Counted from the stretch's first letter, positions 11,068 to 32,522 are shown. The stretch is 41,287 bases of DNA from an uncultured bacterium (GCA_938074335.1 CALJEL010000010.1:1-41287), one strand, 5' to 3'. The notes: generated by a model from the letters alone, not told the origin. Made by a program: numbers and translations.

Positions 11068-11073
11068 TTTCTC

Positions 11074-11103: not shown

Positions 11104-11157
11104 ACTCCCTGTAAATTTACATTTTTATAACCCATTGAAAAGCCAGTATATTCTTTG

Positions 11158-11174
11158 CTGGCATTGCCTTTGCT
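11158..11174 (+). promoter_or_regulatory. Sigma54 (-24/-12) promoter of the rhodanese/sulfur operon
   Basis: TGGCAT-TGCCT-TTGCT: GG at 11160-11161 and GC at 11172-11173 are exactly ten bases apart, as sigma54 requires. The predicted start is near 11185, leaving a leader of about 67 bases before the ATG at 11252. The same hexamers occur at two sites before the methyltransferase genes. Confidence 0.75.
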
Positions 11175-11251
11175 TAATATTGATAAAAAAGAGGGTTTGA
11201 TTTTAAAGCCCTCAAACTTAGCAGACCCAAAATCTGAAGGGAGGTAATGCC

Positions 11252-12277: not shown

Positions 12278-12298
12278 CGGGCTTGCGTTGAGGTCAAG

Positions 12299-16608: not shown

Positions 16609-16623
16609 GTGGCACAATATTCT

Positions 16624-17535
16624 ATGTTCAGGATAGGCCATCTATCAACCTTTTATCACACATCCATTCTTTTTCTAACTAAAAAGGAATTCATGGAGAG
16701 GCTTGGTGTTGAGTTAAGATGGAGGCTCTTTGGCACCGGCCCTGCGATAATTGATGCCTTTGACAAAAGAGAGATAGACCTTGCCTATTTAGGTCTAACA
16801 CCAGCTATAACTGGTATCGAAAGGGGTATACCAATTAAGTGCATAGCAGGTGGACATGTGGAGGGGACCGTGATATGTGGCTTAAATTCTCTTAAGGCTT
16901 ATCCTGAAATTGACCTTAAGGAATTTTTTCTTCAATTCAGGGGCAAGGTGATCGGAGTTCCTGCAAAGGGTTCGATCCATGATGTAATAATAAGAGGGTA
17001 TCTTGAGGAATCAGGTATCCTCCACATGGTAGAGATAAAGAACTTTCAATGGGCTGACCAGATCATTGAGGCAATGAAGAAGGGAGAGGTCTCCATAGCA
17101 GCTGGTACTCCAAATCTTGCCATAGCAGTAAAACGGTTTCTTGGCGGAAGGATTCTCTGGCCACCTGATAGACTATGGCCTTACAGCCCGAGTTACGGGA
17201 TACTGATAAGGACAGATGGTCCTCATGATGACAAATTCATAAGGGAATTTATTGGCCTTCATGAAGAGCTCTGTAATCTTTTAAGGGAAAAACCTCTTGA
17301 GGCATCTGAACTCATAGCATCCCTTGTCGGAGTGGTTGATGCAGACTTTATTTATGAGGCGATCCAGCTTTCTCCAAGATACTGTGCCTCCCTTCCAGAG
17401 GAGTATATCTCCTCCACACTCGGGCTCATGAAGGTTATGAAGAGGCTTGGTTATATTAACAGGGAATTTTCAAGGGATGAGATATTTGATGAAAGGTTTA
17501 TAAGGGAGCTTCATCAGGAGAAATCGCATTACTGA
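16624..17535 (+). CDS. Cytosolic NMT1/SsuA-like substrate-binding-fold protein
   Basis: About 303 residues of the type II periplasmic-binding fold: MFRIGHLSTFYHTSILFLTK, a DLAYLGLTPAITGIERG ligand-loop region and KVIGVPAKGSIHDVIIRGYLEESGI. These match nitrate/sulfonate/taurine ABC binding proteins. It has no signal peptide or lipobox, and no permease or ATPase gene lies nearby, so it is probably a soluble cytosolic protein. Its 3' end overlaps the 3' end of comDE on the other strand by 38 bases. Sulfonate-type binding proteins and the sulfonate chemistry of CoM synthesis make a link attractive but unproven. GTG 16609 is an alternative start; neither has a ribosome site. Confidence 0.75.
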   Translation: MFRIGHLSTFYHTSILFLTKKEFMERLGVELRWRLFGTGPAIIDAFDKREIDLAYLGLTPAITGIERGIPIKCIAGGHVEGTVICGLNSLKAYPEIDLKEFFLQFRGKVIGVPAKGSIHDVIIRGYLEESGILHMVEIKNFQWADQIIEAMKKGEVSIAAGTPNLAIAVKRFLGGRILWPPDRLWPYSPSYGILIRTDGPHDDKFIREFIGLHEELCNLLREKPLEASELIASLVGVVDADFIYEAIQLSPRYCASLPEEYISSTLGLMKVMKRLGYINREFSRDEIFDERFIRELHQEKSHY

Positions 17536-18649
17536 AATATTCCTTTATCTCTGAAGGAGGGAAGGGTATATCAGGGACTTCCTTATTACCTGGCAATGTA
17601 ACAGCATGGATGAATAAGGAGCCAGGGTATTTTTTATTTAATATCCTCCTCAAAAGCGCCTTTGAATAGACCTTAACTGTATGTTTAAAACCAAAGGCCC
17701 TTGCTATTGCCTCGAGGTTAATGAATCTTGAGGTGAGGGTGGGTTGATTGCCTGTGGAGCCATAGGCACCATTGTCAATTGCAACAATGATGAGGTTTTC
17801 TGGATTAAAAAATGCCACTGTCCCTAAAGAAGCTGGGTTCATAAGTATGCTTCCATCACCATCAATAACAATAACCCTCCTTTCAGTAAAAAGTGATATA
17901 CCAAGCCCCAGGGGAGTTGCCATCCCCATGCTACCAAGCATGTAAAAGTTAAGAGGTCTATGCCTTATGAAAAAGAGTTCTTTTGATGGTATCCCGAGGT
18001 TTGATACCACTATCTCATCCTTCAGCATTGATGCAATGGTCTTAATAAAATCAAAGCGCTGATATCTTATTAAGAGCCTGTTAACTGGCTTCACAGCCTT
18101 TACGCCTATACCTGCTACCTTTTGTCTTTTTATCCTTTGCTCCTTTTCCTTATGAAGCACTCCATCCCATATCTCAGGGCTCATGAGAAAGGCAGTGATC
18201 CTGTTTTTCTCATATGCCTCTGATAGCTTATGCCTCATGTGTTTAAGATCATCCTTTTTTTCAATTATCCTGTATTCAATACCGCAGCCATTGAGTATAC
18301 CCTGAAGGGACCTCCCCATCGGGATCTGAGCAGGGATCTTTTCATTATACACTCCCCTCCAGCTGACAAACAGGGCAAGGGGCAATTCATAGGTCTTTGT
18401 TAAAGACATAAGGGCATTCAGCATATTCCCCATACCTGAACTCTGAACAAAGAGTGCCGGCCTTTTACCTGCAAGGGCTGCACCAGCAGATATGCCAATC
18501 CCTTCCTCTTCCCTTGTAAGGGGGATATGTAAGAAGTTTTTTTCAATCAATGAAAGAAGATTCTTTATCTTTTCGCAGGGAAGGCTTAATACCGGATTTA
18601 TACCTGCTGATCTCAGTTCTTCTATGATTAACTCCTCAGATGTGTACAA
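17498..18649 (-). CDS. comDE: Sulfopyruvate decarboxylase, ComD-ComE fusion
   Basis: TPP enzyme converting sulfopyruvate to sulfoacetaldehyde in coenzyme M synthesis. The 383 residues contain the pyrimidine-binding half (about 1-170; activating glutamate in REEEGIG at 46-52, SWRGVYNEKIPAQIPMG) and the pyrophosphate-binding half (about 205-370; GDGSILMN at 264-271, IDNGAYGSTGNQPT). The halves are separate ComD and ComE in Methanocaldococcus but fused in Methanosarcina, as here. Phosphonopyruvate decarboxylase is the close alternative. The adjacent cysteate synthase and Hdr genes, and the lack of phosphonate genes, favour the CoM role. Start is TTG 18649 behind GAGGAGG, overlapping cysteate synthase by 22 bases. 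Confidence 0.88.
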   Translation of the reverse strand: MYTSEELIIEELRSAGINPVLSLPCEKIKNLLSLIEKNFLHIPLTREEEGIGISAGAALAGKRPALFVQSSGMGNMLNALMSLTKTYELPLALFVSWRGVYNEKIPAQIPMGRSLQGILNGCGIEYRIIEKKDDLKHMRHKLSEAYEKNRITAFLMSPEIWDGVLHKEKEQRIKRQKVAGIGVKAVKPVNRLLIRYQRFDFIKTIASMLKDEIVVSNLGIPSKELFFIRHRPLNFYMLGSMGMATPLGLGISLFTERRVIVIDGDGSILMNPASLGTVAFFNPENLIIVAIDNGAYGSTGNQPTLTSRFINLEAIARAFGFKHTVKVYSKALLRRILNKKYPGSLFIHAVTLPGNKEVPDIPFPPSEIKEYFSNAISPDEAPL

Positions 18650-19875
18650 AGGGCCTCCTCAATTTCCTCCTTCTGAGACCTCTTTGATATAAAAAGAGGT
18701 TTAACAGGATAGGTCCTGAAATCCCTTTTATATCTTTCCTCTCCACCTCCTGTTATATGAAGAAGTATGAGGTCCTCATTCCCCACGAGCTCATATCTTA
18801 CTGCCTGCCTGAGGCCTGCCAGGGCAGCACCACCTGCAGGCACTATATCAATACCTTCTGATTCAGCAAATAGTTCCATAGATGAATATATCTCATCGTT
18901 TGTCACACCATACATCTGCCCCTCTGTGGTCTCAAGGATATCATAAATCCCGCCTTTTACAGAATAGGCAGGATATCTACTGGAGAGGACCCTTGTGGAT
19001 ATCTTTTCTATTAAAGCAGGATCAACATCCTCAGGAGATATCTCCCGTGACCTCCTCTGCCATGCCCTTAACATTGGCACAAAGGGAAGGTTTTGAACAA
19101 GATGGAATCTTGGTAATTTCGTCCCGAATCTTCTTTCCCTTATAAGTCTCTCAGCCATTTCATAGACACCTATTGCTCCTGCACCACTTCCCACAGCCTG
19201 AAAATAGTGTTCAGGAAGTCTTCCAATGACTCTAACTGCTGAGAGAAGCACAGAGCCAAGGCCATCCCTCTTTGCAGGATTCTTCACACCTCCCTCAAAG
19301 GGCATACCTGTTATCTCCGAGATCCTTTTTGAAAGATCTATGGCATCAGCATAGTCTCCATCAATTACCACAAATGTAGCAGGATTACCATTCTCATGGA
19401 CATACCACATCTCCTTAAGACAGGCAAGGGGAACAACTATGATAACAGGAAAACCTGTAATAACAGAAAAATAGGCAAAGGCCCTTGCTGTATTTCCGGC
19501 TGAAGCCACAACAAAACCATTTATGCGGTTTTCTTTTGCATTTTCTATTACTGTAGCAACCTCTATTTCCTTGAAGGTGCATGTCCTTAACAGGCAGTTT
19601 CTTTCAGGCCAGTATCCGCTAAAGACTATATAGAGGTTTTTAAGCCCGAGTTTTTCTGAAAGTCCCTCTGATTTATAAACTACTGGTGTTCCTACATGGA
19701 TGGATGGATGGTGAACAGGAAGCCAGTTAAAACCCCAGAGGCCTTTATCTTCTTTTTTAAAAGGTTCGGTGTATTCAGTTATTACAAGTGAACCCTTACA
19801 GTGCTCGCAGAAGGCACAGTAGGAATCTTTCAATATCCTTCCACATCCCCTGCATCTTAATACAAAGTGGCTCAT
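18628..19875 (-). CDS. Cysteate synthase (threonine-synthase paralogue)
   Basis: PLP enzyme making L-cysteate from phosphoserine and sulfite, the first committed step of the Methanosarcinales CoM route. The 415 residues begin with a zinc-ribbon-like cysteine set (CRGCG, CAFCEHC). The PLP lysine context is TCTFKEIE (Lys102) rather than the threonine-synthase SFKDRG. SAGNTARAFAY, HYFQAVGSGAGAIGVYE and LVQNLPFVPM match what I recall of the Methanosarcina enzyme. The start overlaps the HdrD-like stop by four bases, and comDE follows with overlap. A plain threonine synthase is unlikely given the changed lysine motif and context. Confidence 0.85.
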   Translation of the reverse strand: MSHFVLRCRGCGRILKDSYCAFCEHCKGSLVITEYTEPFKKEDKGLWGFNWLPVHHPSIHVGTPVVYKSEGLSEKLGLKNLYIVFSGYWPERNCLLRTCTFKEIEVATVIENAKENRINGFVVASAGNTARAFAYFSVITGFPVIIVVPLACLKEMWYVHENGNPATFVVIDGDYADAIDLSKRISEITGMPFEGGVKNPAKRDGLGSVLLSAVRVIGRLPEHYFQAVGSGAGAIGVYEMAERLIRERRFGTKLPRFHLVQNLPFVPMLRAWQRRSREISPEDVDPALIEKISTRVLSSRYPAYSVKGGIYDILETTEGQMYGVTNDEIYSSMELFAESEGIDIVPAGGAALAGLRQAVRYELVGNEDLILLHITGGGEERYKRDFRTYPVKPLFISKRSQKEEIEEALCTHLRS

Positions 19876-21071
19876 ATAAGGCTTCCTATGAGTTCCATGA
19901 TATCAGTAATCCTTATTTGTTTTTCATAGCCTTCCATTGCCTCATGCATCTTTGAATAACAGGCAGGGCAGCTCAGTATCAGCCTGTCTGCACCTTTTTC
20001 TACAGCCTCATCAATGATGAGTCTGCCCATCTTTATGGCATTTTCATGAAAGACCTTTCTTGCTGCTCCACCTGCACCGCAACACTGAGAATAAAGACCA
20101 TGCCTTTCAAATTCAATCAGTTCTATATCAGGTATGCTTTTCAATACATACCTTGGCTCCTCTATCACACCCACTCCCCTGCTCAGATAACAGGGGTCAT
20201 GGTAGATAAGCCTCTCTTTGAGATGGTCTTTAATAATTAATCTTTTCTCCTTTATCGCCTCAGCAATAAACTGGCTTATGTGCCTGATCTTAAAGGGAAG
20301 GGGTCTTCCGTACAGAGATGGCCAGTCCCTTGCCATTATATTTACACAGCATGGACAGGAGCTGATAAGGAGCTTTACACCCCTTGTCTCATAGGCACTG
20401 ACAAGTCTCCTGACAAGGTCCTCAAGCATATCCCATTGTCCTGTTATGAAAAGGGGAAAACCACAACAGACTTCCTCTTCTGGTGGAAGCATGGTAAAGG
20501 CATAACCAGTTGCATGAAGTGCAAGGACATCTCCCCTTACCATGGGCTGTGCCTCATAACAGCCAGTACAGCCAGCATAATAGCCTATCTCTGCCCTTTC
20601 ATGAACCTTTATATGCTCGGGAAACCAGCTGAATCTCTCCTCTGGAGGTTTATTATATACATTTCCTGTTTTTTTCACAAACTCTGTCAGATTTGCCTGT
20701 GGACCTATAGGTCCAAGACCCATCTCCACCATCTTTCGCCTGAGCACAGGCCATAATCTCTGTGTAAATATCCCAACCTCGCAGGCCTCTCCACAGGCAC
20801 CACAGGTAGTGCATTCATAAACAGCCCTTACAAAGTCCTCAAGGAGTCTCCTGTCCACCTTGCCTCCTGTTATCCTGGCCTTGAGACCTTCTGTATTCTC
20901 TATGAACTCCCTGTAGAGCCTTATCTTCTCAGGAGGTGATATCTGCCTTCTTCCTGTTACCTCCTGTACAGGACACCATTTCAGGCATTCACTGCATCTT
21001 GTGCAGGCATCAAGTTCAACCAATTGCCTCTTAGAGAGGCCATGAGAAAAGGAAAATTTCCTCTCAGTCAT
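19872..21071 (-). CDS. hdrD: HdrD-like heterodisulfide reductase Fe-S subunit
   Basis: 399 residues from ATG 21071 (GGGAGG site); an upstream TTG/ATG-less extension is not needed. Two [4Fe-4S] ferredoxin motifs come first (CTRCSECLKWCP at 23-34; CTTCGACGEAC at 87-97). Two CCG domains follow: Cys168/171, CC202-203 and 239/241-242, then Cys294, CC330-331, 368/371. The second CCG domain is the kind that holds the noncubane cluster at the disulfide site. Size and order match Methanosarcina HdrD (about 400 residues) rather than the longer DsrK. It overlaps the cytochrome b gene by eight bases. Other CCG proteins (glycolate or lactate oxidase subunits) are possible, but the pairing and CoM genes favour HdrD. 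Confidence 0.82.
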   Translation of the reverse strand: MTERKFSFSHGLSKRQLVELDACTRCSECLKWCPVQEVTGRRQISPPEKIRLYREFIENTEGLKARITGGKVDRRLLEDFVRAVYECTTCGACGEACEVGIFTQRLWPVLRRKMVEMGLGPIGPQANLTEFVKKTGNVYNKPPEERFSWFPEHIKVHERAEIGYYAGCTGCYEAQPMVRGDVLALHATGYAFTMLPPEEEVCCGFPLFITGQWDMLEDLVRRLVSAYETRGVKLLISSCPCCVNIMARDWPSLYGRPLPFKIRHISQFIAEAIKEKRLIIKDHLKERLIYHDPCYLSRGVGVIEEPRYVLKSIPDIELIEFERHGLYSQCCGAGGAARKVFHENAIKMGRLIIDEAVEKGADRLILSCPACYSKMHEAMEGYEKQIRITDIMELIGSLI

Positions 21072-21858
21072 GGACAAATCCTCCCAATCTCTGGCTCCTG
21101 AGGAGGGCATCCTTTGTGGTTATCTGGGCAGCGAACATGTGAAACTGCTTGGAAAAGGGGATAAAGGCAATAAAAGAAAGTGCTGTCATAACATGAATAC
21201 ACCAGAAGACAATATAGGTCTTCGGACTGTTCACACCACTAAAGAGAGCTGCAAACAAAGCTCCAACCGGAGACCAATCCATAAAAGGTGGATCTGTCAG
21301 AGAAAGCCTGAGTCCTTCTACAGAAAAACCGCTCAGGACTATGATTATGAGGAGGACGAGCAAGGGCAGGTCATCCCATCCTGAGATGATATCCTCTGAC
21401 AGCCTGATCCTCCTTACAATAAAAAAGGCTGTGCCAGTAAATACTGCAAGACCCGCCAGATCGAGTATGAAGGAGAAGATCAGGTAAATGTATCCCTTAA
21501 GGATATTAAGTCTTAGATAATGGTCAAGACCAACCAGAATAGTTCCAATAAAGAGGATTGTAAATCCCCAGTAGATAAAGATGAGCATTATGCCCCTTAT
21601 CCTGCTTTTACTCATGACCCTTCTTGCCAGGAGGCACTCTTTAGAAAAGAAATATCTGAAGCTCAAAAGAAGCAGGCCTCCTAATCCCTTTCCTTCTAAA
21701 AGGTCATCAGGTTCATCCCTGCCCTTCAGCCATATAGAGAATCTTGAGTATAGGCCAGCTAAAAAGATCAACAAGGAAAGCAGAGATGATATGTAAAAGG
21801 CTATTTTCAGCAACCAGGGTATGTATATAAAGGCCTCACGAGACATATCAAACCTCAC
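21064..21858 (-). CDS. hdrE: HdrE-like membrane cytochrome b subunit
   Basis: 264 residues with about five membrane helices, NarI/DsrM/HdrE type. Candidate haem-ligand histidines lie in GLDHYLRLN and in the last span (CIHVMTALSFIAFIPFSKQFHMF). The size matches HdrE of Methanosarcina. It would pass electrons between a membrane quinone and the HdrD-like subunit encoded immediately downstream. The start overlaps the folD stop by four bases. In methanogens the partner is methanophenazine; in this bacterium a menaquinone is more plausible. Confidence 0.8.
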   Translation of the reverse strand: MRFDMSREAFIYIPWLLKIAFYISSLLSLLIFLAGLYSRFSIWLKGRDEPDDLLEGKGLGGLLLLSFRYFFSKECLLARRVMSKSRIRGIMLIFIYWGFTILFIGTILVGLDHYLRLNILKGYIYLIFSFILDLAGLAVFTGTAFFIVRRIRLSEDIISGWDDLPLLVLLIIIVLSGFSVEGLRLSLTDPPFMDWSPVGALFAALFSGVNSPKTYIVFWCIHVMTALSFIAFIPFSKQFHMFAAQITTKDALLRSQRLGGFVHD

Positions 21859-22787
21859 ATTGAACAGGGACTCTTCATCATCTCGGTTCTTATAGCGGAC
21901 CTGACAGTATTTTTAAGTAACATTGCAATTGTGACTGGTCCAACTCCGCCAGGAACAGGAGTGATGAAGGATGCTTTTTTTGAAACACTTTCAAAATCGA
22001 CATCTCCCACAATCTTTCCATTAGAAAGTACATTTATACCTATATCAACAACCACCGCTCCTTCTTTAATCATATCATCCTTTATAAGACCTGCAACACC
22101 TGTAGCAGAACAGATTATATCTGCCTGCTTTGTAAAAAATGAAAGGTTATAGGTCTCCTTATGGCATACCGTTACCGTTGCGTCCTTTGCAAGGAACATT
22201 AATGAAAGAGGCTTCCCAACGGTAAGGCTCTTTCCTATAACGACTACATGCTTCCCTTTAATTGGAATGTTGTAATATTCAAGAAGTCTGATTACACCAA
22301 AGGGTGTACAGGGAAGGAAACCGGTAATGAGTGGTTCATAGCTGTTTATTATCTCATCAGCTTTATTTCTAAAGAGTTGAAAGGTAGATTCATCAGCAGC
22401 AAGTCTACCCACTGATAGGGAGCCAAGACCGTCCACATCCTTGTCTGGTAATATTGAATTGATAACCCTTCTGGCGTTTATCCTTTTCGGCAGTGGTAAA
22501 AGGATCAGCAGACCGTGAATTCTCTCATCGTGATTTACAGAGTTAATTATGTTCAGTATCTCATTTAGGTTTACTTCTTCGGATAACCTGAATTCATATG
22601 GTATTATACCAACATTTTTGCACGCCATAAGGGTTGCTGAGAAATACTGCTTTGAGGCAGGATTCTCTCCTATAAGCATCAGACCAAGACCCACCTCAAT
22701 ACCCGATTCCTTAAGCCTCTTTACCTCATTTTTAACCTTATCCTTAATCTCTGCTGCAAGTCTTTTGCCATCCATTATTACTGCCAT
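21855..22787 (-). CDS. folD: Divergent FolD (methylene-H4F dehydrogenase; cyclohydrolase residues missing)
   Basis: 310 residues with the FolD fold: LIGENPASKQYFSA, KDVDG (Asp119 retained), PCTPFGVIRLL and the nucleotide loop VIGKSLTVGKPLS. Two residues essential for cyclohydrolase activity are changed. The lysine four after the active-site tyrosine is Thr52 (YFSAT), and the VQLPLP glutamine is Leu96 (LLPLP). There is also about a 20-residue insertion near 126-150. It probably only oxidises or reduces methylene-/methenyl-H4F. The ATG follows AAAGGAGG and overlaps the previous gene by 44 bases. A normal bifunctional folD may exist elsewhere in the genome. Confidence 0.88.
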   Translation of the reverse strand: MAVIMDGKRLAAEIKDKVKNEVKRLKESGIEVGLGLMLIGENPASKQYFSATLMACKNVGIIPYEFRLSEEVNLNEILNIINSVNHDERIHGLLILLPLPKRINARRVINSILPDKDVDGLGSLSVGRLAADESTFQLFRNKADEIINSYEPLITGFLPCTPFGVIRLLEYYNIPIKGKHVVVIGKSLTVGKPLSLMFLAKDATVTVCHKETYNLSFFTKQADIICSATGVAGLIKDDMIKEGAVVVDIGINVLSNGKIVGDVDFESVSKKASFITPVPGGVGPVTIAMLLKNTVRSAIRTEMMKSPCSM

Positions 22788-23106
22788 CCAGTGCCTCCTT
22801 TGTAAACCTGATACTCACATCTTTTGGGATGCATAGTCCTGCCTCGACCTCAAGGGTCTTCAATATGCCAGCAGGTACAGGACATGCCACATGCTTGAGA
22901 TGCAGAGCTGCTGCCTTATATACAGGGTTGTTGAGAAAATCTTTAAAGGCTATCATGATATCAAGGGTATCAATCTCTCTGGCCATTGCCATTACCATCT
23001 CACAGCCTGATTCAATCTTTATCTTTATTTTTCTGTCCTTAGCCTTCTCTGCTATAATTTCTGTTGAAAAACCACAGTTCCCGGCGAATACTATAACCCT
23101 GGTCAT
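22744..23106 (-). CDS. DUF6951-like small protein of corrinoid methyltransferase clusters
   Basis: 120 residues with features of a small family found beside MtrH/RACo genes: VFAGNCGFSTEIIAEK at the start, IKIESGCEMVMAMARE, and AALHLKHVACPVPAGILKTLEVEAGLCIPKDVSI. Conserved Cys/His (HLKHVACPVP) might bind metal. The function is unknown. It overlaps the RACo gene by four bases and folD by 44, so it is translated with them. Family naming is from memory. Confidence 0.65.
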   Translation of the reverse strand: MTRVIVFAGNCGFSTEIIAEKAKDRKIKIKIESGCEMVMAMAREIDTLDIMIAFKDFLNNPVYKAAALHLKHVACPVPAGILKTLEVEAGLCIPKDVSIRFTKEALDGSNNGWQKTCSRD

Positions 23107-25073
23107 TTGATCTCTACAGAATATGCTCTATCCTGAAGAAGGCTCTTCAGATTAGGAAAAGGATCCTTCATATGGGGTATATGCATGGCCTGCATGAACT
23201 CCTTCTGAAATTCTGGCTCAACGGCGATCTCAACAAATTCAACCCATCTTGCCTTCTCATCAGCCTCCTGTCTCTTTGACACATTGAGCAGGGCCATCCT
23301 TGCACCATCTCCGGCTGCATTACCAACCGCATAGACATTGTTTATATCACAATCAGGAAACATCCCCAGTGTTAAGGCAGACTCCTTATCAATGTAACTT
23401 CCAAAGGCACCTGCAAGGATCACCTTATCAACCCTCTCTATGCCCATCCTTTTCATTAATAGCTTTGCTCCAGCATAGAGAGCTGCCTTTGCAAGCTGTA
23501 CTGCCCTCACATCTGACTGTGTTATTGTGATATCCATTCCTATGGATGTTTCATTTGCCCAGGCTATTACATATTCAGGCATACCATCAGTACCTCTTCG
23601 TATCCTCGGGGTATTAAGATTCATATTGAACCTTCCTGTCTTATCGATTATACCAGCCTTAAAAATCTCGGCTACAGCATCTATGATACCTGAGCCACAT
23701 ATTCCCTTAGCATCTATCTTTTCAATATGGGTATGCCAGTCTGCCTTTCCAATTACCCTATATTCAGGTTCCTTTGTAACAGGGTCTATCCTTACCTTTT
23801 CAATAGCACCTGGTGCAGCCCTCATGCCGAATTTTATCTGGGCACCCTCAAAGGCAGGTCCTGTTGCGCAGGATGTGGAGCATACCTTCTTTTTGTTTCC
23901 AAGGAGCAGTTCACCATTTGTACCTATATCTATTATTAAAACAATCTCATCCATGTTATAGGGCTCTTCTGCAATGAGGACACCCACATTGTCAGCACCA
24001 ACAAACCCTGCCTCAATGGGAAGGACATGGATATAGGATGAAGGGTTGATTTTTATCCCTAAATCCCTTGCCTTTATGTTCAGCGAGTGCTGTACAGCAG
24101 GTATAAATGGTGATCTTCCTATGTATTCAGGATTGAATCCAAGGAATATATGGTGCATGGCTGTATTAAATACAACGGTCATGTCCACTATGGCATGACC
24201 GCCATCCCTTCCATCTACCCTTAGATCAGCAGAGACCTTTTCAATAATCTCATTCAATCCGTCAATAATTGCCTTCTGCATGATCTTCAAGCCTTCAGGG
24301 TTTGTCATGGCATAGGTTATCCTTGACATCACATCCTCTCCATAAGGGACCTGTGGGTTCATCATGGACTCGGTATTTATAACCTTTCCCGTGTTGAGGT
24401 CACAGAGATAGCCAACCACTGTGGTTGTTCCTATATCCACCGCAATCCCATAGGAGGCCTCCACAAAGCCAGGTTCTACCTTTATTATCTCCCTGTTCAT
24501 CCATACAGAGACCGTGATCTTCCACTCACCCCTTCTCATGATATCTTGAAGTTCTTTAAGAACAGGATAGTCGATCTGAAGGCCTGATAATCCATAATCT
24601 TCCTTCAGTTTCCTGAAGAGCCTTTCGGCATCTCCTTCTGTAAGATCATGAAGGGTAGGGGGTTCAAATTCAACAAAGTATTTCTTAACAGCTGGATTTA
24701 CAGGGATGGACAATTCTCTTGCTGCCTTTCTTACAACCTGTTTGCCTGCCCTTGACTTTTCAGGTACAAATATCTTTACATCTCCATAAATCTCTGCCTT
24801 GCAGGCAAGCCTTATGTTTGGGCCATCCTCTGGCTTTATAAATTTTCTTTCTACATCCAATAGAGGGCTGAGATGGGACATCCTTGACTCCAGTGCATCT
24901 TTTTCAAAATACCCTTCCTCTATCCTTACCTTACATTTACCGCAGGTACCCTTTCCTCCGCATATTGATTCTATGTCAACACCGAGCTGCCGGGCTGCAT
25001 CAAGCAATGTGGTACCACTTTGAACCTCACCTCTTCTACCTGATGGCTGGAATATCACCCTGTGTTTTGACAT
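23103..25073 (-). CDS. RACo-type reductive activator of corrinoid proteins
   Basis: ATP-dependent reactivase that reduces inactive Co(II) corrinoid to Co(I). From ATG 25073 (AAAGGAGG site) the protein has 656 residues. The N-terminal plant-type [2Fe-2S] ferredoxin domain has Cys38, Cys44, Cys47 and Cys91. A linker and a large ASKHA-fold domain (DUF4445) follow, with AVDIGTTTVVGYL, IIDIGTNGELLLGN and ILAGAFGSYID. It sits two genes after the corrinoid protein, its expected client. Electrons could come from the Fe-S protein encoded just before. Confidence 0.93.
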   Translation of the reverse strand: MSKHRVIFQPSGRRGEVQSGTTLLDAARQLGVDIESICGGKGTCGKCKVRIEEGYFEKDALESRMSHLSPLLDVERKFIKPEDGPNIRLACKAEIYGDVKIFVPEKSRAGKQVVRKAARELSIPVNPAVKKYFVEFEPPTLHDLTEGDAERLFRKLKEDYGLSGLQIDYPVLKELQDIMRRGEWKITVSVWMNREIIKVEPGFVEASYGIAVDIGTTTVVGYLCDLNTGKVINTESMMNPQVPYGEDVMSRITYAMTNPEGLKIMQKAIIDGLNEIIEKVSADLRVDGRDGGHAIVDMTVVFNTAMHHIFLGFNPEYIGRSPFIPAVQHSLNIKARDLGIKINPSSYIHVLPIEAGFVGADNVGVLIAEEPYNMDEIVLIIDIGTNGELLLGNKKKVCSTSCATGPAFEGAQIKFGMRAAPGAIEKVRIDPVTKEPEYRVIGKADWHTHIEKIDAKGICGSGIIDAVAEIFKAGIIDKTGRFNMNLNTPRIRRGTDGMPEYVIAWANETSIGMDITITQSDVRAVQLAKAALYAGAKLLMKRMGIERVDKVILAGAFGSYIDKESALTLGMFPDCDINNVYAVGNAAGDGARMALLNVSKRQEADEKARWVEFVEIAVEPEFQKEFMQAMHIPHMKDPFPNLKSLLQDRAYSVEIK

Positions 25074-25765
25074 ACATAAACCTCCTTTAAAATCTTTCTT
25101 CCGAAGGGGCATATATTTATACAGAGCCCGCAGTTTGGTTTACCTGATATAGTTTTTCTTGATCTTCTATATTCCTCACATCTTTTAATATCAACAAGTT
25201 CCTCATAGGGCCTATCGATTGACCAGTCCTTTTCATTTATCGCATTAGCAGGGCAGTACCGGACACAGAGAAAACAACTTCCACAGAGTCCTTTTTCTAT
25301 GGGGCTACCAGGCTCAAAGGGTGCATCTGTCAGAACAGTGGCAAGCGAGAGCCTTGGACCATACTGAGGATTTATGAAAAGCCCATTTCTACCTATCCAG
25401 CCAAGTCCTGAACAGGTTGCAGCAATCTTATGGGTAAAAAGGCCATAAAGCCTTGAGATGAATTTATCCGATCTCTTTGAAGAATCAGGAGGTATGGCAA
25501 GGTATCTGAATCCCCTTTTTCTTAAAAAGAGTGTTACCACCTTTTGAAGGTCTTCAAGTATCTCTATGGTCCTGTCAGTAAGCCTTCTGTTTAGCCCTAT
25601 TGAAACAGCCTTTTTTAGATGGGCGATATCTCCCTTTACAACCATGCTTACATCAGCAAAACCCACCACAGTGGCGCCGAGACTTATCAGAAGCTCTTTA
25701 AGCTCATGGTTAAGGGATTCCATATTGTGGTTTTCTCTATTCACTGACAGCCTTTGCCTCTGCAT
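25055..25765 (-). CDS. QueG-like double [4Fe-4S] protein
   Basis: Up to 236 residues. The C-terminal half is a two-cluster ferredoxin domain (CGSCFLCVRYCPANAI and CGLCINICPFGRKIL). The middle matches epoxyqueuosine-reductase-like proteins (GLGWIGRNGLFINPQYGPRLSLATVLTD). It is much shorter than QueG and lies between the corrinoid protein and RACo genes, so a role in feeding electrons to, or protecting, the corrinoid is more likely than tRNA modification. The start is uncertain: ATG 25765 overlaps the corrinoid gene and its ribosome site is too close, while ATG 25723 has none. Confidence 0.75.
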   Translation of the reverse strand: MQRQRLSVNRENHNMESLNHELKELLISLGATVVGFADVSMVVKGDIAHLKKAVSIGLNRRLTDRTIEILEDLQKVVTLFLRKRGFRYLAIPPDSSKRSDKFISRLYGLFTHKIAATCSGLGWIGRNGLFINPQYGPRLSLATVLTDAPFEPGSPIEKGLCGSCFLCVRYCPANAINEKDWSIDRPYEELVDIKRCEEYRRSRKTISGKPNCGLCINICPFGRKILKEVYVCQNTG

Positions 25766-26432
25766 CTTCCTTTAATTTTTTAAGTGCGCTTATCATGTTG
25801 ATTGCCTCTTTCAGGGCATTGCTTGCATCCTTTGCATATCCATCAGCTCCCCACTTTTCAGCAATATCATGGGATACCGGGGCGCCTCCAATCATGATCT
25901 TTGCCTTTGGATTTCTCTTTTTTATCTCATCAATAACCTTTTTCATACCAACCATGGTCGTTGTCATCATGGCAGAAAGACAGACAAGATCTGCATCAGT
26001 GCGGAGCTGTTCTTCAACAAACCTGTCAAGAGGTACATCCCTTCCAAGGTCATAGACAGTAAAACCAGCAACATCAAACATCATCTTCACGATATTCTTT
26101 CCAATATCATGGACATCTCCCTCTACAGTTCCTATTACCACAGTGCCTTTTATACCAAGGTCAAGCTTTTTCATATGGGGTTTCAGGATATCAAGACCTG
26201 CATAAAGGGCATCGGCGCACATGAGGAGCTCAGGAACAAAATATTCCTGTCTTTCAAAGAGCCTTCCAACCTCCTCCATACCTGAAACAAGTCCATTAAA
26301 TATAGCCTCTGCTGGATCAAGGCCAGCCTCAAGGGCCTCCTTTGCTGCATCCCTTGCACCGTCTTCATCATAATTGATTACGGCCCTTTTCAGTTTTTCA
26401 AGTATCTCCTTCTTTTTTTCTTCGTCTATCAT
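25737..26432 (-). CDS. Methyltransferase corrinoid protein (MtaC/MtbC family)
   Basis: Carries the methyl group on a cobamide. The 231 residues comprise a four-helix cap (about 1-90) and a B12-binding Rossmann domain with the lower-ligand motif D106-x-H108-x-x-G111 (GTVEGDVHDIGKNIV) and GGAPVSHDIAEKWGADGYA. It starts four bases inside the end of the methyltransferase gene (ATGA). It is the only corrinoid protein in the window, so both UroD-type proteins and the MtrH-like protein probably act on it. Confidence 0.95.
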   Translation of the reverse strand: MIDEEKKKEILEKLKRAVINYDEDGARDAAKEALEAGLDPAEAIFNGLVSGMEEVGRLFERQEYFVPELLMCADALYAGLDILKPHMKKLDLGIKGTVVIGTVEGDVHDIGKNIVKMMFDVAGFTVYDLGRDVPLDRFVEEQLRTDADLVCLSAMMTTTMVGMKKVIDEIKKRNPKAKIMIGGAPVSHDIAEKWGADGYAKDASNALKEAINMISALKKLKEDAEAKAVSE

Positions 26433-27469
26433 GACCTATCCCCTCCTTTGTAATTCTTTATCTCTTCCATCATGGCATGGAAGTTTTCCGGTGGTATGGT
26501 TGGCCAGATGTCACATCCAGGCCAGATGGCACTTGCTCCATCGTCAATGCACTTCCTTACAGCCTCCCTTACCTTTTCAGTGGTGCCCTGGACAAGGATA
26601 TTGTATGGATCAAGATTTCCGAATATGAGGGCATCTTTTCCAAGTGTTTTTCTTGATTCAGCCAGGTCATTTTTCTGATCAACACTGATAGCTGTTGCTC
26701 CTGTCTCTATCATAAACTGCACTATCTGATTGGTCTTCCCGCATATATGCAAGACCGATGGAATGGTTATTCTTGATATGACCTTAATGAGGGGCTTTTG
26801 AATGAGATTCTTGAATACCCTCGGACTCAGGACATCAGAGGTCGCACCCATCTCCCTTACGGTAAGGTAGTCCAATCCTGCATCTATAAGTTCCTCTGCC
26901 ACCATAATAATGGCATCAGCAAGGAGGTCAAGAAGAAGGCTCACCTTATCAGGTTTTTTAAAGGAGAGCTTTAATAATTCATTCAGGTCCATTACCTGAC
27001 CTGCAAGTGTAAAGGGTCCAAGCACATAGGAGCCAATAGCCACCTCGTTACCCACCCGGTTTTTGGCTATCTTTATAGCCTCTACAAGAAGAGGGATCCT
27101 ACCCTTTTTCTTGAGATCATCAGGTATGGTAATCTCCATTTCCTGCTCTGAGTTAATTAATTTTTTCTTTATGGTTGGATAAAGAATACCTTCTGAGTGG
27201 GCATACACATTTATCTCGCATCCCAGGGCCTCTGCCTCTATACACAGGTCAAAGGGAAGGACCGCACATTCGAAACCGAATAGTTCATAGGTTGATGCAG
27301 AGGCCTCTGCCATCTTTTTTGCATCAAGGTGTATATCTGCAAATCTGTGACCCATCTTTTTAAGTGCATATTCAGTCACATTTCCCATTCCACTGAAACA
27401 GGGAATTCTGTCAACCTCCTTTTTCTGAAAAAGATTTAAAACCCGTTCTTTCGGAGATATTGTGCTCAT
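26429..27469 (-). CDS. UroD-superfamily methyltransferase 1 (MtaA/MtbA-like)
   Basis: 346-residue TIM-barrel protein. The thiol-activating zinc ligands of MtaA/MtbA are all visible: His241 and Cys243 in LHICGKT and Cys319 in WPGCDIWP (MtbA uses His239, Cys241, Cys316). Such enzymes transfer methyl between a corrinoid and coenzyme M. Related bacterial UroD proteins are O-demethylases acting on methoxy substrates, so substrate-side activity is also possible. It is flanked by MtrH-like and corrinoid genes, both with four-base overlaps. With CoM synthesis encoded in the same train, a methylcobamide:CoM role is reasonable. Confidence 0.88.
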   Translation of the reverse strand: MSTISPKERVLNLFQKKEVDRIPCFSGMGNVTEYALKKMGHRFADIHLDAKKMAEASASTYELFGFECAVLPFDLCIEAEALGCEINVYAHSEGILYPTIKKKLINSEQEMEITIPDDLKKKGRIPLLVEAIKIAKNRVGNEVAIGSYVLGPFTLAGQVMDLNELLKLSFKKPDKVSLLLDLLADAIIMVAEELIDAGLDYLTVREMGATSDVLSPRVFKNLIQKPLIKVISRITIPSVLHICGKTNQIVQFMIETGATAISVDQKNDLAESRKTLGKDALIFGNLDPYNILVQGTTEKVREAVRKCIDDGASAIWPGCDIWPTIPPENFHAMMEEIKNYKGGDRS

Positions 27470-28449
27470 ACTGCCTCCTTTACTCTTCGTGCCTTTGCAC
27501 CTGAGATAAGTTTTTCCACAAACTCATTGAAATAAAGTTTTATAGGCAGGGAAGGATTTTCCAGGACACTATTCCTTTCATGATAAACAAGGGTGCTGAG
27601 AAGAATATGGGCTGTTGCTACAGCATGGAATATCCTTGGTGCATTCACAATCGGTCCGTAGAAATTGAAATCACTCCAGAGGTTAGAGGCTATTGCCTGA
27701 GCTACTGCATCCATTACCCTGAATCCTTCTATTCCCCATTTATCCTTTATCTCCTTCCACATGTTGGTACCATTGGAATAGGCACCTCCAGCTGGAAGGC
27801 CATATTTTTCTTTGATCAGTCTGTTGGCTATCAAAGAAAAGGATGTGGCAGGAAGGTTCATTACAGATGTATCCACAAGGATTGTATCGAACTGGTCAGC
27901 ACCCTGAGAAAGTATATAATCCAGTGACTTTAATCTTCCATAAGGGGTCTGATCAGTATCATCGAAGACCTGTATTACCACATGTCTTATTCCCAGGTCC
28001 TTCAGCCTCTGGACCTGTGCCTTTATGTCCTTATCCCAGGGTGTTATGCTGTTGTAAAGAAATTTATCCTGAAGCCCGAGTTTTGCAATGTATTCAGTTG
28101 TCTTTATCCTTTTTTCAGCTACCCACATATCTATTCCAAAGGGCATATCTGTAGTCTCAAGATAAAAATCTATGTATATCTTTGCCTCTTCAGGTGTATT
28201 TGCAACCATCGCAACCATGGACGGGATACCGGTAATACTGGAGAGTTCCTCCTGTCTCTTAATGAGCTCACGGGCTCTCTGGCGGTCAAAATTGCCCTTT
28301 CTATCCTGAAGTAATCTGTCTTTGTTATGAAACATAGAGGCAATCAATAAAGGTGGATTTTCTCCTGGCTGACCGCCTACCTTGATATTCCCTATAGTAA
28401 AGACCTTCTGTTCTGTTTTAAATGTAAAGATATCCTTTCTTTCTTCCAC
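27466..28449 (-). CDS. MtrH-like methyl-tetrahydrofolate:corrinoid methyltransferase
   Basis: About 327 residues of the MtrH family: FTIGNIKVGGQPGENPPLLI, FDRQRARELI, the substrate-site region YNSITPWDKDI and KEKYGLPAGGAYSNGTNMW. In bacteria such proteins move methyl between corrinoid and tetrahydrofolate, which agrees with metF and folD in the same cluster. I prefer GTG 28449, which has GAGGTG four bases upstream, to ATG 28479. The latter lies inside the loop of a GC-rich hairpin, has no ribosome site and would add ten atypical residues. It ends with a four-base overlap into the UroD gene. Confidence 0.88.
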   Translation of the reverse strand: MEERKDIFTFKTEQKVFTIGNIKVGGQPGENPPLLIASMFHNKDRLLQDRKGNFDRQRARELIKRQEELSSITGIPSMVAMVANTPEEAKIYIDFYLETTDMPFGIDMWVAEKRIKTTEYIAKLGLQDKFLYNSITPWDKDIKAQVQRLKDLGIRHVVIQVFDDTDQTPYGRLKSLDYILSQGADQFDTILVDTSVMNLPATSFSLIANRLIKEKYGLPAGGAYSNGTNMWKEIKDKWGIEGFRVMDAVAQAIASNLWSDFNFYGPIVNAPRIFHAVATAHILLSTLVYHERNSVLENPSLPIKLYFNEFVEKLISGAKARRVKEAV

Positions 28450-28469
28450 TTTACACCTCACGATTTTTT

Positions 28470-28488
28470 GGGGCGGCATAGCCGCCCC
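28470..28488. other. GC-rich hairpin between the AhpD-like and MtrH-like genes
   Basis: GGGGCGGC and GCCGCCCC form a perfect eight-base stem around ATA. On the minus transcript it is followed by A residues rather than U, so it is not a terminator for the operon. It may mark mRNA processing or set relative expression of the downstream genes. Confidence 0.55.
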
Positions 28489-28493
28489 TTTGA

Positions 28494-28937
28494 TTAATGG
28501 ATGCCGTGATCGAACTTTGGTTGAGGTAGATATTCCCAGGGTTCACCCTTTATTACCTTCTGGGCAATCTCAACGCACTTTACCGCATATTCAAAAGCAT
28601 AAGGTATGCCTGGACCATTTGGAACGAATCCGGCAAGTATTGTACCTATGGCTGCAGCCTCAAAGACCTCCTCAACAGTTGCACCAGCCTTTACAGCAGG
28701 AACCACATGAACAATGCACCTTGGAGACATGTAGGCAACACCACCTGCCATGAAGATCAATTCCTTGATCTTCCTTGAAAGGGCTCCATCCTTCCAGAGG
28801 GATTCATAAAAGTCTGCAAAGGTCTTTCCTGCCTCAGGATTTAATTGATTGATGATCTTGAACATCCTCGGAAGGAAGAGCATATGTTCTTCCATGTACT
28901 TATTGGCCTCTTCCGGGGTTAATTTCTTTTCTGCCAT
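28494..28937 (-). CDS. Carboxymuconolactone decarboxylase/AhpD-like protein
   Basis: 147 residues, all-helical CMD fold, with the segment LIFMAGGVAYMSPRCIVHVVPAV. AhpD-type proteins use a CxxC...H thiol site; here it reads S-P-R-C-x-x-H, so one cysteine is serine and a disulfide cannot form within the motif. The start follows GGGAGGT. It lies between the two methyltransferase groups. Role unknown; a thiol or peroxide function beside CoM-thiol chemistry is only a suggestion. Confidence 0.8.
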   Translation of the reverse strand: MAEKKLTPEEANKYMEEHMLFLPRMFKIINQLNPEAGKTFADFYESLWKDGALSRKIKELIFMAGGVAYMSPRCIVHVVPAVKAGATVEEVFEAAAIGTILAGFVPNGPGIPYAFEYAVKCVEIAQKVIKGEPWEYLPQPKFDHGIH

Positions 28938-28981: not shown

Positions 28982-30010
28982 TTATAATCTCCAGTTTCTG
29001 GCAGTCTCGATGAACCTCTGAATGTTTTCATATGGTACTGTTGGAGGTATATCACAGCCTGGCATGAGGACAAATCCTCCATCAGTACCAGCTATTTCTA
29101 TAATCTCCTTACATGTCCTCTCCACATCCTCAACTGTGCCTTGAAGCATTATCTTTACAGGATCAACATTTCCGGCAAAGCACATCCTGCCATGGAGTAT
29201 CTCCTTTGCCTTTTTTATATCAGTCTTATGATCAAGGCTTATGCAGCTTGCACCTGTGAAGGGAAAGAGGTCGAGCCTGTCTGTGGTATTTCCACAGATA
29301 TGGACAAGTGTATGGACATTCTTTGACCTCGCCCAGTCAGTAAATTTCTTAAGATAGGGAAGTGCAAATCTTTCAAACTGTGTTTTTGATATCAGGTCTC
29401 CTGAGGCAGTGGGATCAGCAAGGCTTATAACTTCTAATGTGCCATCCTCCACAAGGGGCTTATAGAGATGAATCAGGAGTTCTGTTGCGAAGTTAACGAC
29501 CTTTTCCACAAAGGCAGGTTTTTTGAAGGTGGCCTTCATCATTGGTTCCTCTCCAATGAGCCTTGCACCAAGGGTAAAGGGACCCCAGGCAGTCATGGTT
29601 ACAACATATTCATCACCAATCTTTGATTTTGTAAATTTCAGGGCCTCCTTGATGGTACTAATAACATCATGTCTGTCGACGGAGCTGATATCAAGCCTTG
29701 AAAGGTCTTCTTCTGATGAGATAATAGGTGCCTCGAGATCAGGTGCCCCGATCTCCCTGAATTTTATGCTTCCACCAAGGGCAGCGGCATGGAAATTATT
29801 GTAACCTGAACCGCAATAGACTATGTCAGCTCTCAATTTGTCTGCCATCTTAACGAGCATGTCAGTCATCTTCCGGGCATCTGTTGAAAGTTCCTTGAAA
29901 GTAGTGCCATAGTTATGGATACTCCACATCCCGCCACCAAAGAGGGTAACAGGCACCCTCTCTGGCTTTCCTCCCTCAAAGGCCTTAAATATAATCTCCT
30001 TTGGCTTCAT
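28982..30010 (-). CDS. UroD-superfamily methyltransferase 2 (MtaA/MtbA-like)
   Basis: 342 residues, clearly paralogous to the protein at 26429 but diverged. Zinc ligands are His237 and Cys239 in VHICGNT and Cys319 in MPGCDIPP. The N-terminal region, which forms the substrate funnel, differs most (TLFGGGMWSIHNYG, YCGSGYNNFHAAALGG), suggesting a different methyl donor or acceptor. It is the first gene behind the sigma54 promoter at 30060-30075, with ribosome site AAAGGAG. In a two-enzyme scheme, one UroD protein would load the corrinoid from the growth substrate and the other would face CoM; which is which cannot be read here. Confidence 0.86.
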   Translation of the reverse strand: MKPKEIIFKAFEGGKPERVPVTLFGGGMWSIHNYGTTFKELSTDARKMTDMLVKMADKLRADIVYCGSGYNNFHAAALGGSIKFREIGAPDLEAPIISSEEDLSRLDISSVDRHDVISTIKEALKFTKSKIGDEYVVTMTAWGPFTLGARLIGEEPMMKATFKKPAFVEKVVNFATELLIHLYKPLVEDGTLEVISLADPTASGDLISKTQFERFALPYLKKFTDWARSKNVHTLVHICGNTTDRLDLFPFTGASCISLDHKTDIKKAKEILHGRMCFAGNVDPVKIMLQGTVEDVERTCKEIIEIAGTDGGFVLMPGCDIPPTVPYENIQRFIETARNWRL

Positions 30011-30059
30011 CTTGAACTCCTTTTTAAAATTGTTTATAAAGAGTTACATTATCACTTCA

Positions 30060-30075
30060 GCAACATTTATGCCAG
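30060..30075 (-). promoter_or_regulatory. Sigma54 promoter of the methyltransferase/CoM operon
   Basis: On the minus strand: TGGCAT-AAATG-TTGCT, with GG at 30073-30072 and GC at 30061-30060, ten bases apart. Predicted start near 30048, leaving about 38 bases of leader containing the AAAGGAG site of the first gene. It matches the elements at 11158 and 31139 in both hexamers. Confidence 0.75.
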
Positions 30076-30232: not shown

Positions 30233-31096
30233 TTAGGTGCCTATAACCTTAACTATAGAGCTTACCATATCAGATTTATTAAGTGTATAAAAATGAAAGA
30301 ATCTCACCCCATTATTACGAAGATCAGTGCATTGTTTTATGGCTATCTCTATTCCTATCTTCTTCATTTCTTCCGGGTTATCCTGGTAGGGTTCCATCTT
30401 TTTAATGATTGAATCAGGTATTGTGGCCTTGCAAAAGCTTGCAAATTCTATTATTTTTTTGATATCTCCAATGGGCATTATGCCTGGTATGATCGGTATA
30501 TTAATTCCTGCCCTTTCGGCCCTTTCCATAAACTGGTAAAAATACTTATTATCAAAAAACATCTGTGTTATGGCAAAGTCAGCTCCCTCATCAATCTTTT
30601 TCTTTGTGTATTCCATGTCCTTTTCAAGACTGGGTGATTCCTGATGTCCTTCAGGATAGACAGCCACGGCAATAGAAAAAAAATTATATCTCTTTATGAA
30701 TCTTATAAGATCTATCGCATATTTAAACTCACCCTTCAGAGGGTCAAAATCAGGAACCCCCCTGGGAGGATCTCCCCTTAGAGCAAGGATGTTATCCACA
30801 CCAATAGACATATAGCTTCTGAGAAGCTCATCTATAGCCTTTTGAGTTGCTCCTATACAGGTCAGGTGTGACATTACTGTAAGATCTGTCTCTTCTCTTA
30901 ACCATTTCAGTGTGCGATAGGTTCTATCCTGAGTTGTTCCTCCAGCACCATAGGTCACAGATACATACAAAGGATTAAAGGCACTGAGGTCCCTGATTAC
31001 AGCCAGAAAGCTATCCTTTCCCTCCTCGGACTTGGGGGGAAAGAATTCAAAGGAAATACCTCTACCTTTTTCTTTCAGGATATCTCTTATGAGCAT
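30233..31096 (-). CDS. metF: Methylene-tetrahydrofolate reductase
   Basis: FAD enzyme interconverting methylene- and methyl-tetrahydrofolate. The 287 residues show the family signatures: FEFFPPKSEEG, VSVTYGAGGTTQDRT, HLTCIGAT, ILALRGDPPRG and IPGIMPI. Ribosome site AAGGAGGAG. It is the first gene after the sigma54 regulator gene and has its own sigma54 promoter. Linked with an MtrH-like enzyme and corrinoid protein, it probably serves methyl-group oxidation or Wood-Ljungdahl flux rather than, or in addition to, methionine synthesis. No MetV-type partner gene is present nearby. Confidence 0.95.
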   Translation of the reverse strand: MLIRDILKEKGRGISFEFFPPKSEEGKDSFLAVIRDLSAFNPLYVSVTYGAGGTTQDRTYRTLKWLREETDLTVMSHLTCIGATQKAIDELLRSYMSIGVDNILALRGDPPRGVPDFDPLKGEFKYAIDLIRFIKRYNFFSIAVAVYPEGHQESPSLEKDMEYTKKKIDEGADFAITQMFFDNKYFYQFMERAERAGINIPIIPGIMPIGDIKKIIEFASFCKATIPDSIIKKMEPYQDNPEEMKKIGIEIAIKQCTDLRNNGVRFFHFYTLNKSDMVSSIVKVIGT

Positions 31097-31138
31097 TTGT
31101 CGCTCCTCCTTTTGTTTAAGGTCTTATTGCTATTTTTA

Positions 31139-31154
31139 GCAAAAATAATGCCAT
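31139..31154 (-). promoter_or_regulatory. Sigma54 promoter of metF
   Basis: On the minus strand: TGGCAT-TATTT-TTGCT, with GG at 31152-31151 and GC at 31140-31139, ten bases apart. The predicted start is near 31128, about 32 bases before the metF ATG. It lies directly downstream of the sigma54 regulator gene ending at 31188. Confidence 0.72.
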
Positions 31155-31187: not shown

Positions 31188-32522
31188 TTATCCAGGCTGG
31201 GACTTTATTGCATATTTCTTCAACTTCAGATAAAGGGTCTTTCTGTCGATACCAAGGATCTGACTTGCCTTAGACTGATTCCATCCTGTCTCGGCAAGGA
31301 CCTTAAGAATATGGCTCCTTTCGATCTCATCAAGGGAATTGAGAGAACCACTCTCTTTCTGGTATGCCTGTGTTATAGATATATCTTCTGGTCTGATTAA
31401 GCCTGTATCAGAAAGTATAACAGCCCTTTCAATGATATTTTCAAGTTCCCTTACATTTCCAGGCCAGTGATAAGAATTAAGGATCTCCATGGCCTCATCA
31501 CTGAAGCCCTTGATGGTCTTTGAAAATTTAGTGCTGTATCTTTTTAAAAAGTATTCAGCAAGCAGTGGTATATCTTCCCTCCTTTCCCTCAATGGAGGTA
31601 TCCTTATGTTTATCACATTAAGCCTGTAGTAAAGGTCTTCTCTGAATTCGTTCTTTGCGATCAGCTCCTGTATATTCCTGTTTGTTGCTGCTATGATCCT
31701 CACATCTGCATAGAGGGTCTTGTTGCCTCCAACCCTTCTGAACTCTCCTGAATCAAGGAACCTCAGGAGTTTTGCCTGAAGGCCCTGAGGCATCTCTCCT
31801 ATTTCATCAAGAAAAAGTGTACCCTTTGAGGCCACCTCCACTATGCCATATTTTGTCTTATAGGCATTTGTAAAGGCTCCTTTCTCATAACCAAAAAGCT
31901 CTGCCTCCATAAGATTTTCAGTGAGATTTGCGCAGTTGAGGGCAAGAAATGGTGCATCCCTCCTCAGGCTATTCTGCCATATAAGCCTTGCCACTATCTC
32001 TTTACCCGTACCTGTTTCACCCTCTATGAGTACCGGAGAATCTATGGTGGATATTTTCATTATAAGCTGGTATATCTCTGACATCCTCTTGCTCCTGAAG
32101 ACGAAATCTCTGACCCGTCCTTTGAGCAGCTCCTGATGCAGGGCCTCACTTTTTATTTTGAGACTTCTATATTCATAGGCCTTTTCAATTAAAATTATAA
32201 GTTCATCAAGTTTATATGGCTTTGTGACAAAATCAAAGGCTCCATGCTTCATTGCCAGAACAGCATTTTCAACTGTTGCCTTACCTGTGAGGACAATGAT
32301 AGAGGGTGAATAAGGATCATTCTTTAATCTTTTAAGGAATTCTATCCCATCCAGTCCTGGCATCACAAGATCAAGCAGGATCACATCAAAAGAGTCTTTC
32401 TGGAGAAGCTCAAGACCTTCCTTTCCATCGCAGGCCTCGGTATAAAATCCCTTTCTTGAAAGCTCCTTTTTGAGTATCCTTCTGATGGGCTCCTCATCAT
32501 CAATAACAAGTATTCTTATCAT
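31188..32522 (-). CDS. NtrC-type sigma54 response regulator adjacent to the methyltransferase genes
   Basis: 444 residues. The receiver has Asp51 (FDVILLDLVMPGLDG). The AAA+ domain has GETGTGKE (168-175) and the sigma54-contact loop as GAFTNA (215-220) rather than GAFTGA. FREDLYYRLNVINIRIPPLRER follows. The Fis-type DNA-binding end is NQSKASQILGIDRKTLYLKLKKY. It overlaps the upstream kinase gene by 23 bases. With sigma54 promoters 36 and 1,115 bases downstream of its stop, it is the obvious activator of metF and the methyltransferase/CoM operon. Confidence 0.93.
   Translation of the reverse strand: MIRILVIDDEEPIRRILKKELSRKGFYTEACDGKEGLELLQKDSFDVILLDLVMPGLDGIEFLKRLKNDPYSPSIIVLTGKATVENAVLAMKHGAFDFVTKPYKLDELIILIEKAYEYRSLKIKSEALHQELLKGRVRDFVFRSKRMSEIYQLIMKISTIDSPVLIEGETGTGKEIVARLIWQNSLRRDAPFLALNCANLTENLMEAELFGYEKGAFTNAYKTKYGIVEVASKGTLFLDEIGEMPQGLQAKLLRFLDSGEFRRVGGNKTLYADVRIIAATNRNIQELIAKNEFREDLYYRLNVINIRIPPLRERREDIPLLAEYFLKRYSTKFSKTIKGFSDEAMEILNSYHWPGNVRELENIIERAVILSDTGLIRPEDISITQAYQKESGSLNSLDEIERSHILKVLAETGWNQSKASQILGIDRKTLYLKLKKYAIKSQPG

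Follow-up and report, generated by a model that had tools for sequence, protein, structure and literature searches.

A 41,287-nt stretch of DNA from an uncultured bacterium (GCA_938074335.1 CALJEL010000010.1:1-41287; hereafter the window, its genome being G000) encodes a cysteate synthase (CS), a pyridoxal phosphate (PLP) enzyme, next to ComDE, a fused sulfopyruvate decarboxylase that belongs to the thiamine pyrophosphate (TPP) enzymes. The main finding of our analysis is the context of this pair: CS and ComDE, which a preliminary description had presented as a stand-alone two-gene cassette without mention of their methyltransferase and Hdr neighbors, are the 3′ end of a long conserved gene cluster. 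We somewhat favor reading the locus as a coenzyme M (CoM)-dependent methyl-transfer operon of the Nitrospirota with a membrane disulfide reductase. The literature that we found ties cellular CoM to archaeal methyl-CoM reductase (MCR) chemistry and, in a few bacteria, to alkene/epoxide metabolism. It describes neither this cluster nor any synthesis of CoM by Nitrospirota, subscription journals and preprints lying outside the search.

Identity of the CS and ComDE genes

Two open reading frames (ORFs) were found side by side on the minus strand at 17498-19875, as previously described, with an overlap of 22 nt. CS scored 449 bits on the cysteate synthase model TIGR03844 (curated cut-off 324.9) and only 90 bits on the best threonine synthase model, which has a cut-off of 303. 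Both halves of ComDE passed their models, with 198 on TIGR03845 (cut-off 148) and 224 on TIGR03846 (cut-off 221.5), while the fusion failed the phosphonopyruvate decarboxylase model TIGR03297 (213 against 312.5), on which true phosphonopyruvate decarboxylases score 414 to 446. The top structural match of the AF2 model of CS was 9k3c (TM 0.93, 2.2 Å, 39% identity), above every threonine synthase. The motifs picked out earlier, TCTFKEIE at the PLP lysine and GAYGSTGNQPT at the TPP site, are both present, and F101, K102, E103, and E105 of the PLP-lysine stretch are invariant, 9k3c and the Streptomyces sequences included.

Phylogenetic trees, which contain no archaeal sequences, grouped neither protein with threonine synthases or phosphonopyruvate decarboxylases: CS stood apart from the remaining fold-II PLP enzymes of the genome (support 100/99, in a tree with very long outgroup branches), and ComDE from the phosphonopyruvate decarboxylases (100/100). 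The Nitrospirota came out as a single group with a support of 86/92 for CS and 91/88 for ComDE. These cut-offs and branches bear out, at the level of sequence, the earlier assignment of the specific rather than the ancestral functions. Shared folds and distant homology are what retained threonine synthase and phosphonopyruvate decarboxylase activities would predict as well, but the model scores and separate branches argue against such retention, as do other threonine synthase-like genes in the genome (at C84), and we regard it as extremely improbable. Very probably, the two window enzymes would together make sulfoacetaldehyde.

The likeness to Methanosarcina that had been noted is real: in Methanosarcina acetivorans, CS likewise stands beside ComDE in cs-comDE-MMP16 (MA3297-MA3299), on a route from phosphoserine to sulfoacetaldehyde (PMC12068725). 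The window genome differs in being bacterial, in having neither MMP16 nor MCR, and in that the pair is joined to a tetrahydrofolate (THF)-linked methyltransferase and HdrED cluster. It was also correct that known bacterial CoM synthesis is different. The Xanthobacter route, the only one described in bacteria (PMC12068725), starts from phosphoenolpyruvate, and this genome has no gene for its ComA (PF02679); ComA occurs in 6 genomes, where it is unlinked to CS.

The gene cluster and its conservation

The genes for MtaA2, the AhpD-like protein, MtrH, MtaA1, the corrinoid protein, the QueG-like protein, RACo, DUF6951, FolD, the cytochrome b-like subunit, HdrD, CS, and ComDE all run in one direction, with MetF just upstream (Table 1). 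We scanned GTDB species genomes with Nitrospirota-specific patterns and obtained 71 loci. Almost all of them bear the label Nitrospirota/Nitrospirae or Thermodesulfovibrionia, and the same series, mostly without FolD, recurs in them in the same order. CS was present in 71 loci, ComDE in 68, HdrD in 65, DUF6951 in 57, the HdrE-like gene in 56, RACo in 54, MttC in 48, MtaA1 in 47, and MtrH in 45, many of the lower counts being due to contig ends. When all ORFs of the 71 loci were clustered, HdrD and a DsrM-like membrane protein proved to be the most frequent neighbors of CS and ComDE; the latter occupies the HdrE-like position in 56 of the 71, and HdrD/HdrE directly adjoins CS in most. Chance is excluded as an explanation because the pair recurs beside HdrD in nearly all loci.

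Table 1. Features of the window around CS and ComDE, with the basis of each assignment
Feature	Position	Strand	Basis and remarks
SsuA/NMT1-like binding protein, no obvious signal peptide	16609..17535	+	profile matches; convergent with ComDE
ComDE, fused sulfopyruvate decarboxylase (TPP enzyme)	17498..18649	-	383 aa, TTG start; TIGR03845 and TIGR03846 over cut-off
CS (PLP; phosphoserine + sulfite to cysteate)	18628..19875	-	415 aa, ATG start; TIGR03844, structure model, tree
HdrD-like subunit, two 4Fe-4S and two complete CCG (C...CC...CxxC) motifs	19872..21110	-	Pfam CCG, Fer4; motif check
Membrane cytochrome b-like subunit (HdrE/NarI/QmoC-like)	21064..21858	-	weak QmoC, TmcC, NarI matches
FolD methylene-THF dehydrogenase/cyclohydrolase	21855..22787	-	profile matches; in 9/71 loci
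DUF6951, small protein, predicted IscU/SufE-like fold	22744..23106	-	profile match, alignment, model, fold searches
RACo corrinoid reductive activator	23103..25112	-	profile matches
QueG/RDH-like Fe-S protein	25055..25765	-	profile matches
MttC-type corrinoid protein, cobalamin motif DVHDIG	25737..26432	-	TIGR02370 over cut-off; motif
MtaA1, methylcobalamin:CoM methyltransferase-like, Zn motif HIC...GC	26429..27469	-	NF004889, TIGR01463; best PDB match MtaA (4ay7/4ay8)
MtrH-family pterin:corrinoid methyltransferase	27466..28479	-	NF002142, 342 vs 287; PDB 8z9u, 6sj8
Carboxymuconolactone decarboxylase (CMD, AhpD)-like protein	28494..28937	-	profile match
MtaA2, second URO-D methyltransferase, Zn motif HIC...GC	28982..30010	-	below MtaA/CmuA cut-offs; PDB 4ay7
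Sigma-54-type site TGGCATAAATGTTGCT, upstream of MtaA2	30059..30074	-	site search
MetF methylene-THF reductase	30233..31096	-	TIGR00676 over cut-off
Sigma-54-type site TGGCATTATTTTTGCT, upstream of MetF	31138..31153	-	site search
Sigma-54-dependent response regulator	31188..32522	-	identified by reading the translation

Co-occurrence was followed in 61 genomes of the window's order. An MtaA-type methyltransferase over cut-off was found in 23, the same 23 that hold DUF6951; ComDE is present in 22 of these and CS in 21 of those 22, while none of the four occurs in the 38 remaining genomes. CS and ComDE are thus nested within the methyltransferase set and never occur without it in this sample. 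Several families contain genomes both with and without the cluster, and a congener of the window's organism (G001) lacks it. Within the phylum, CS was found in 29 of 245 sampled genomes, which belong to the window's own order, to other orders of its class, and to another class.

MtaA1 passed the subfamily model NF004889 (280, cut-off 244) and TIGR01463 (257, cut-off 235), and its nearest solved protein is a CoM methyltransferase; MtaA2 passed no MtaA or CmuA profile. Both URO-D proteins retain the HxC...C zinc motif of the thiol-activating type, and the corrinoid protein retains DxHxxG. The HdrD-like protein has the two CCG noncubane-cluster motifs and the membrane cytochrome b partner expected of a heterodisulfide reductase HdrDE. 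The corrinoid protein, the MtaA-type zinc enzyme, the MtrH/MtgA-type enzyme, and RACo are shared with the methylotrophic MtaABC and MtgBCA systems; the window cluster differs from these in combining two URO-D enzymes with CoM-synthesis genes, and no substrate-specific MtaB or MttB gene was seen in it.

The sigma-54-type regulator gene adjoins both sigma-54-type sites of the window. Such sites lay upstream of MtaA2 in 5 of 16 loci, compared with 8 of 37 upstream of MtrH, and the signal is not strong beyond the window.

CoM as the proposed product and methyl carrier

In the proposed pathway, CS would use phosphoserine and sulfite to form L-cysteate, which a general aminotransferase would convert to sulfopyruvate, ComDE would decarboxylate sulfopyruvate to sulfoacetaldehyde, and a further enzyme or a sulfide-driven step would take sulfoacetaldehyde to CoM. 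MtrH would move methyl groups between THF and the MttC-type corrinoid protein, and MtaA1, perhaps together with MtaA2, would move them between the corrinoid protein and the CoM thiol, with RACo and the QueG-like protein repairing the corrinoid. Through the HdrD/cytochrome b pair, the quinone pool would exchange electrons with a disulfide that contains CoM. Carbon monoxide dehydrogenase/acetyl-CoA synthase is nearly universal among the genomes examined, and the THF methyl branch therefore exists. We infer CoM as the end product and as the methyl carrier, together with the direction of flow and the disulfide. That sulfoacetaldehyde becomes CoM in this system seems reasonably probable to us; that the operon uses CoM as its methyl carrier has, in our judgment, a little better than an even chance.

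Several observations weigh against this reading. This genome and 60 of the 61 lack the known CoM synthase family, MMP16/HcyBio (PF01837/COG1900), which G048 alone has, and methyl-CoM reductase (McrA) was found in none of the 61, this genome included; their absence leaves the last step of CoM synthesis and the use made of methyl-CoM without an explanation. Because MtaA1 fell short of the MtaA and MtbA equivalog cut-offs (259 against 400 and 200 against 600), CoM is only its putative thiol. No Hdr equivalog model was over cut-off for HdrD, whose best named model, also below cut-off, was TfrB. The window CS is the fastest evolving of its set, with 10 of 128 near-invariant columns altered (A106V and N373H among them) where the others have at most 6. 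Finally, the co-occurrence (Fisher p ~2e-14) does not count independent events, since the genomes are related and the genes linked: what it reflects is a single operon that moves, or disappears, as a block.

With respect to the missing synthase, M. acetivorans forms CoM without MMP16 under high sulfide (PMC12068725), and a sulfide-rich cell may therefore not need MMP16. In Methanosarcina, CoM has also been described as a thiol with an antioxidant role (PMC12713407).

The small protein DUF6951 was considered as a CoM synthase. Its alignment has four invariant residues, C11, C35, H72, and C75, and its predicted model resembles the IscU/SufE fold (Foldseek prob 0.98, E 0.046; Z 6.4) with no sequence match; by alignment offset only, the four residues fall near C37, C63, H105, and C106 of IscU. 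The model makes DUF6951 a possible carrier of sulfur or of an Fe-S cluster. The synthase role was rejected: G048 retains DUF6951 without ComDE, which ties the protein to the methyltransferases.

A sulfonate other than CoM, such as isethionate, taurine, or a sulfonolipid, might instead be made from cysteate or sulfoacetaldehyde, with the methyltransferases merely neighbors. The lack of MMP16 is in keeping with such a product, as is the use of the same CS family, with 9k3c (CapA2) as an example, in Bacteroidota to supply cysteate for sulfonolipids (PMC11211663), and as are the Streptomyces CS-like genes next to ORFs resembling nonribosomal peptide synthetases (NRPSs). However, CS and ComDE co-occur with CoM-type methyltransferases in a nested pattern, which points to a shared function, and Xsc, the enzyme of sulfoacetaldehyde degradation, was over cut-off in none of the 61 genomes. 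For a sulfonolipid in particular, most genomes of the order carry a serine palmitoyltransferase-like gene, but its distribution differs from that of CS: it also occurs in genomes that lack CS, while G006 and G040, which have CS, gave nothing closer than distant matches. Sulfonolipid synthesis also has no need of ComDE. The Bacteroidota CapA/Cys pathway, whose cysteate synthase is 41% identical to the window CS over the aligned part and likewise over the TIGR03844 cut-off, makes its capnine lipids without ComDE and without methyltransferases. We therefore consider a product other than CoM unlikely.

One relative has lost CS, and another lacks both genes of the pair. In G058, only the first 34 and the last 51 residues of CS remain (L122:14836-15098) while ComDE is complete, and an SsuA-SsuC-SsuB importer (9966-12545), whose SsuA passes its cut-off, lies between RACo and DUF6951. 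The cluster of G048 (L121) has the same importer and lacks HdrED, CS, and ComDE, the last two being found nowhere else in that genome; on another contig (L120), two COG1900/HcyBio genes flank an HdrD-like gene. It is tempting to think that these organisms import a sulfonate needed by the methyltransferases in place of making it, but this is suggestive only because the importer also occurs in 3 of the 71 CS-bearing loci and both genomes are metagenome-assembled genomes (MAGs). Clusters with a sulfonate-type importer and without CS or ComDE form a natural test set, and DUF6951 is a small protein to assay.

Taken together, these results suggest CoM-dependent one-carbon chemistry in uncultured sulfur-cycle bacteria without the methane-forming enzyme. 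The fuller picture, in which the Nitrospirota would have an MCR-free CoM one-carbon metabolism with corrinoid-mediated methyl exchange between THF and CoM, a quinone-linked CoM-disulfide reductase, and a completion of CoM that does not use MMP16 (perhaps with DUF6951), we put forward tentatively and with some doubt. If it is true, a widespread bacterial phylum without MCR has methanogen-type machinery that works in part, and the use of methyl-CoM and CoM-disulfide by bacteria becomes a testable question.

Origin of the cluster and relatives elsewhere

The preliminary description had also proposed an archaea-to-bacteria transfer of the pair, which found no support. Methanosarcina-like archaea as recent donors of a CS-ComDE cassette would fit the cs-comDE order shared with M. 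acetivorans (PMC12068725), the only one of 14 control genomes with CS over cut-off and likewise the only one with DUF6951. However, the pair sits in a cluster of about 12 genes that spans the phylum and occurs in two or more of its classes, and CS divergence correlates with the divergence of ComDE (rho 0.63), RACo (0.51), HdrD (0.49), MtaA1 (0.46), and MtrH (0.42), with none of 500 permutations giving correlations as high. The GC content and codon use of CS and ComDE are those of their flanks. An old, jointly inherited operon fits because the divergence is congruent and the GC and codon use are native, and we consider a recent transfer quite improbable. No archaeal CS was obtained from viral contigs and plasmids, and the patterns of the genome scan were Nitrospirota-specific.

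Relatives of CS and of ComD/E also exist in other bacteria, a further point against recent transfer. Membership in TIGR03844 says nothing about an archaeal origin because 9k3c is CapA2 of Alistipes finegoldii, which scores above the window CS on this model. Roseobacter plasmids (Leisingera, Sulfitobacter) hold comD and comE of the sulfopyruvate decarboxylase family, with products 35-37% identical to the window ComDE; unlike the window fusion, these are two separate genes beside alcohol dehydrogenase and hydroxy-acid oxidase genes, and we take their role to be probably degradative. On the Streptomyces plasmids L102 and L103, the CS-like genes beside NRPS-like ORFs (370 bits on TIGR03844 for L103) possibly serve a sulfonated natural product.

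The same operon was seen in L093, a MAG labelled Thermoleophilia (Kmv30), through mis-binning or transfer. In a few relatives, a CobW-type GTPase lies beside the cluster (L126:3098-3997, G006); a Ni-binding GTPase has been reported near archaeal CoM genes (PMC12068725). The SsuA-like gene occurs downstream of ComDE, on the opposite strand, in about 18 loci, and its product in the window may be a cytoplasmic sulfonate sensor. Farther along the window, at 38084-39052, this bacterium encodes a protein with a deoxyhypusine synthase domain (Pfam DS 34.9 bits, cut-off 27).

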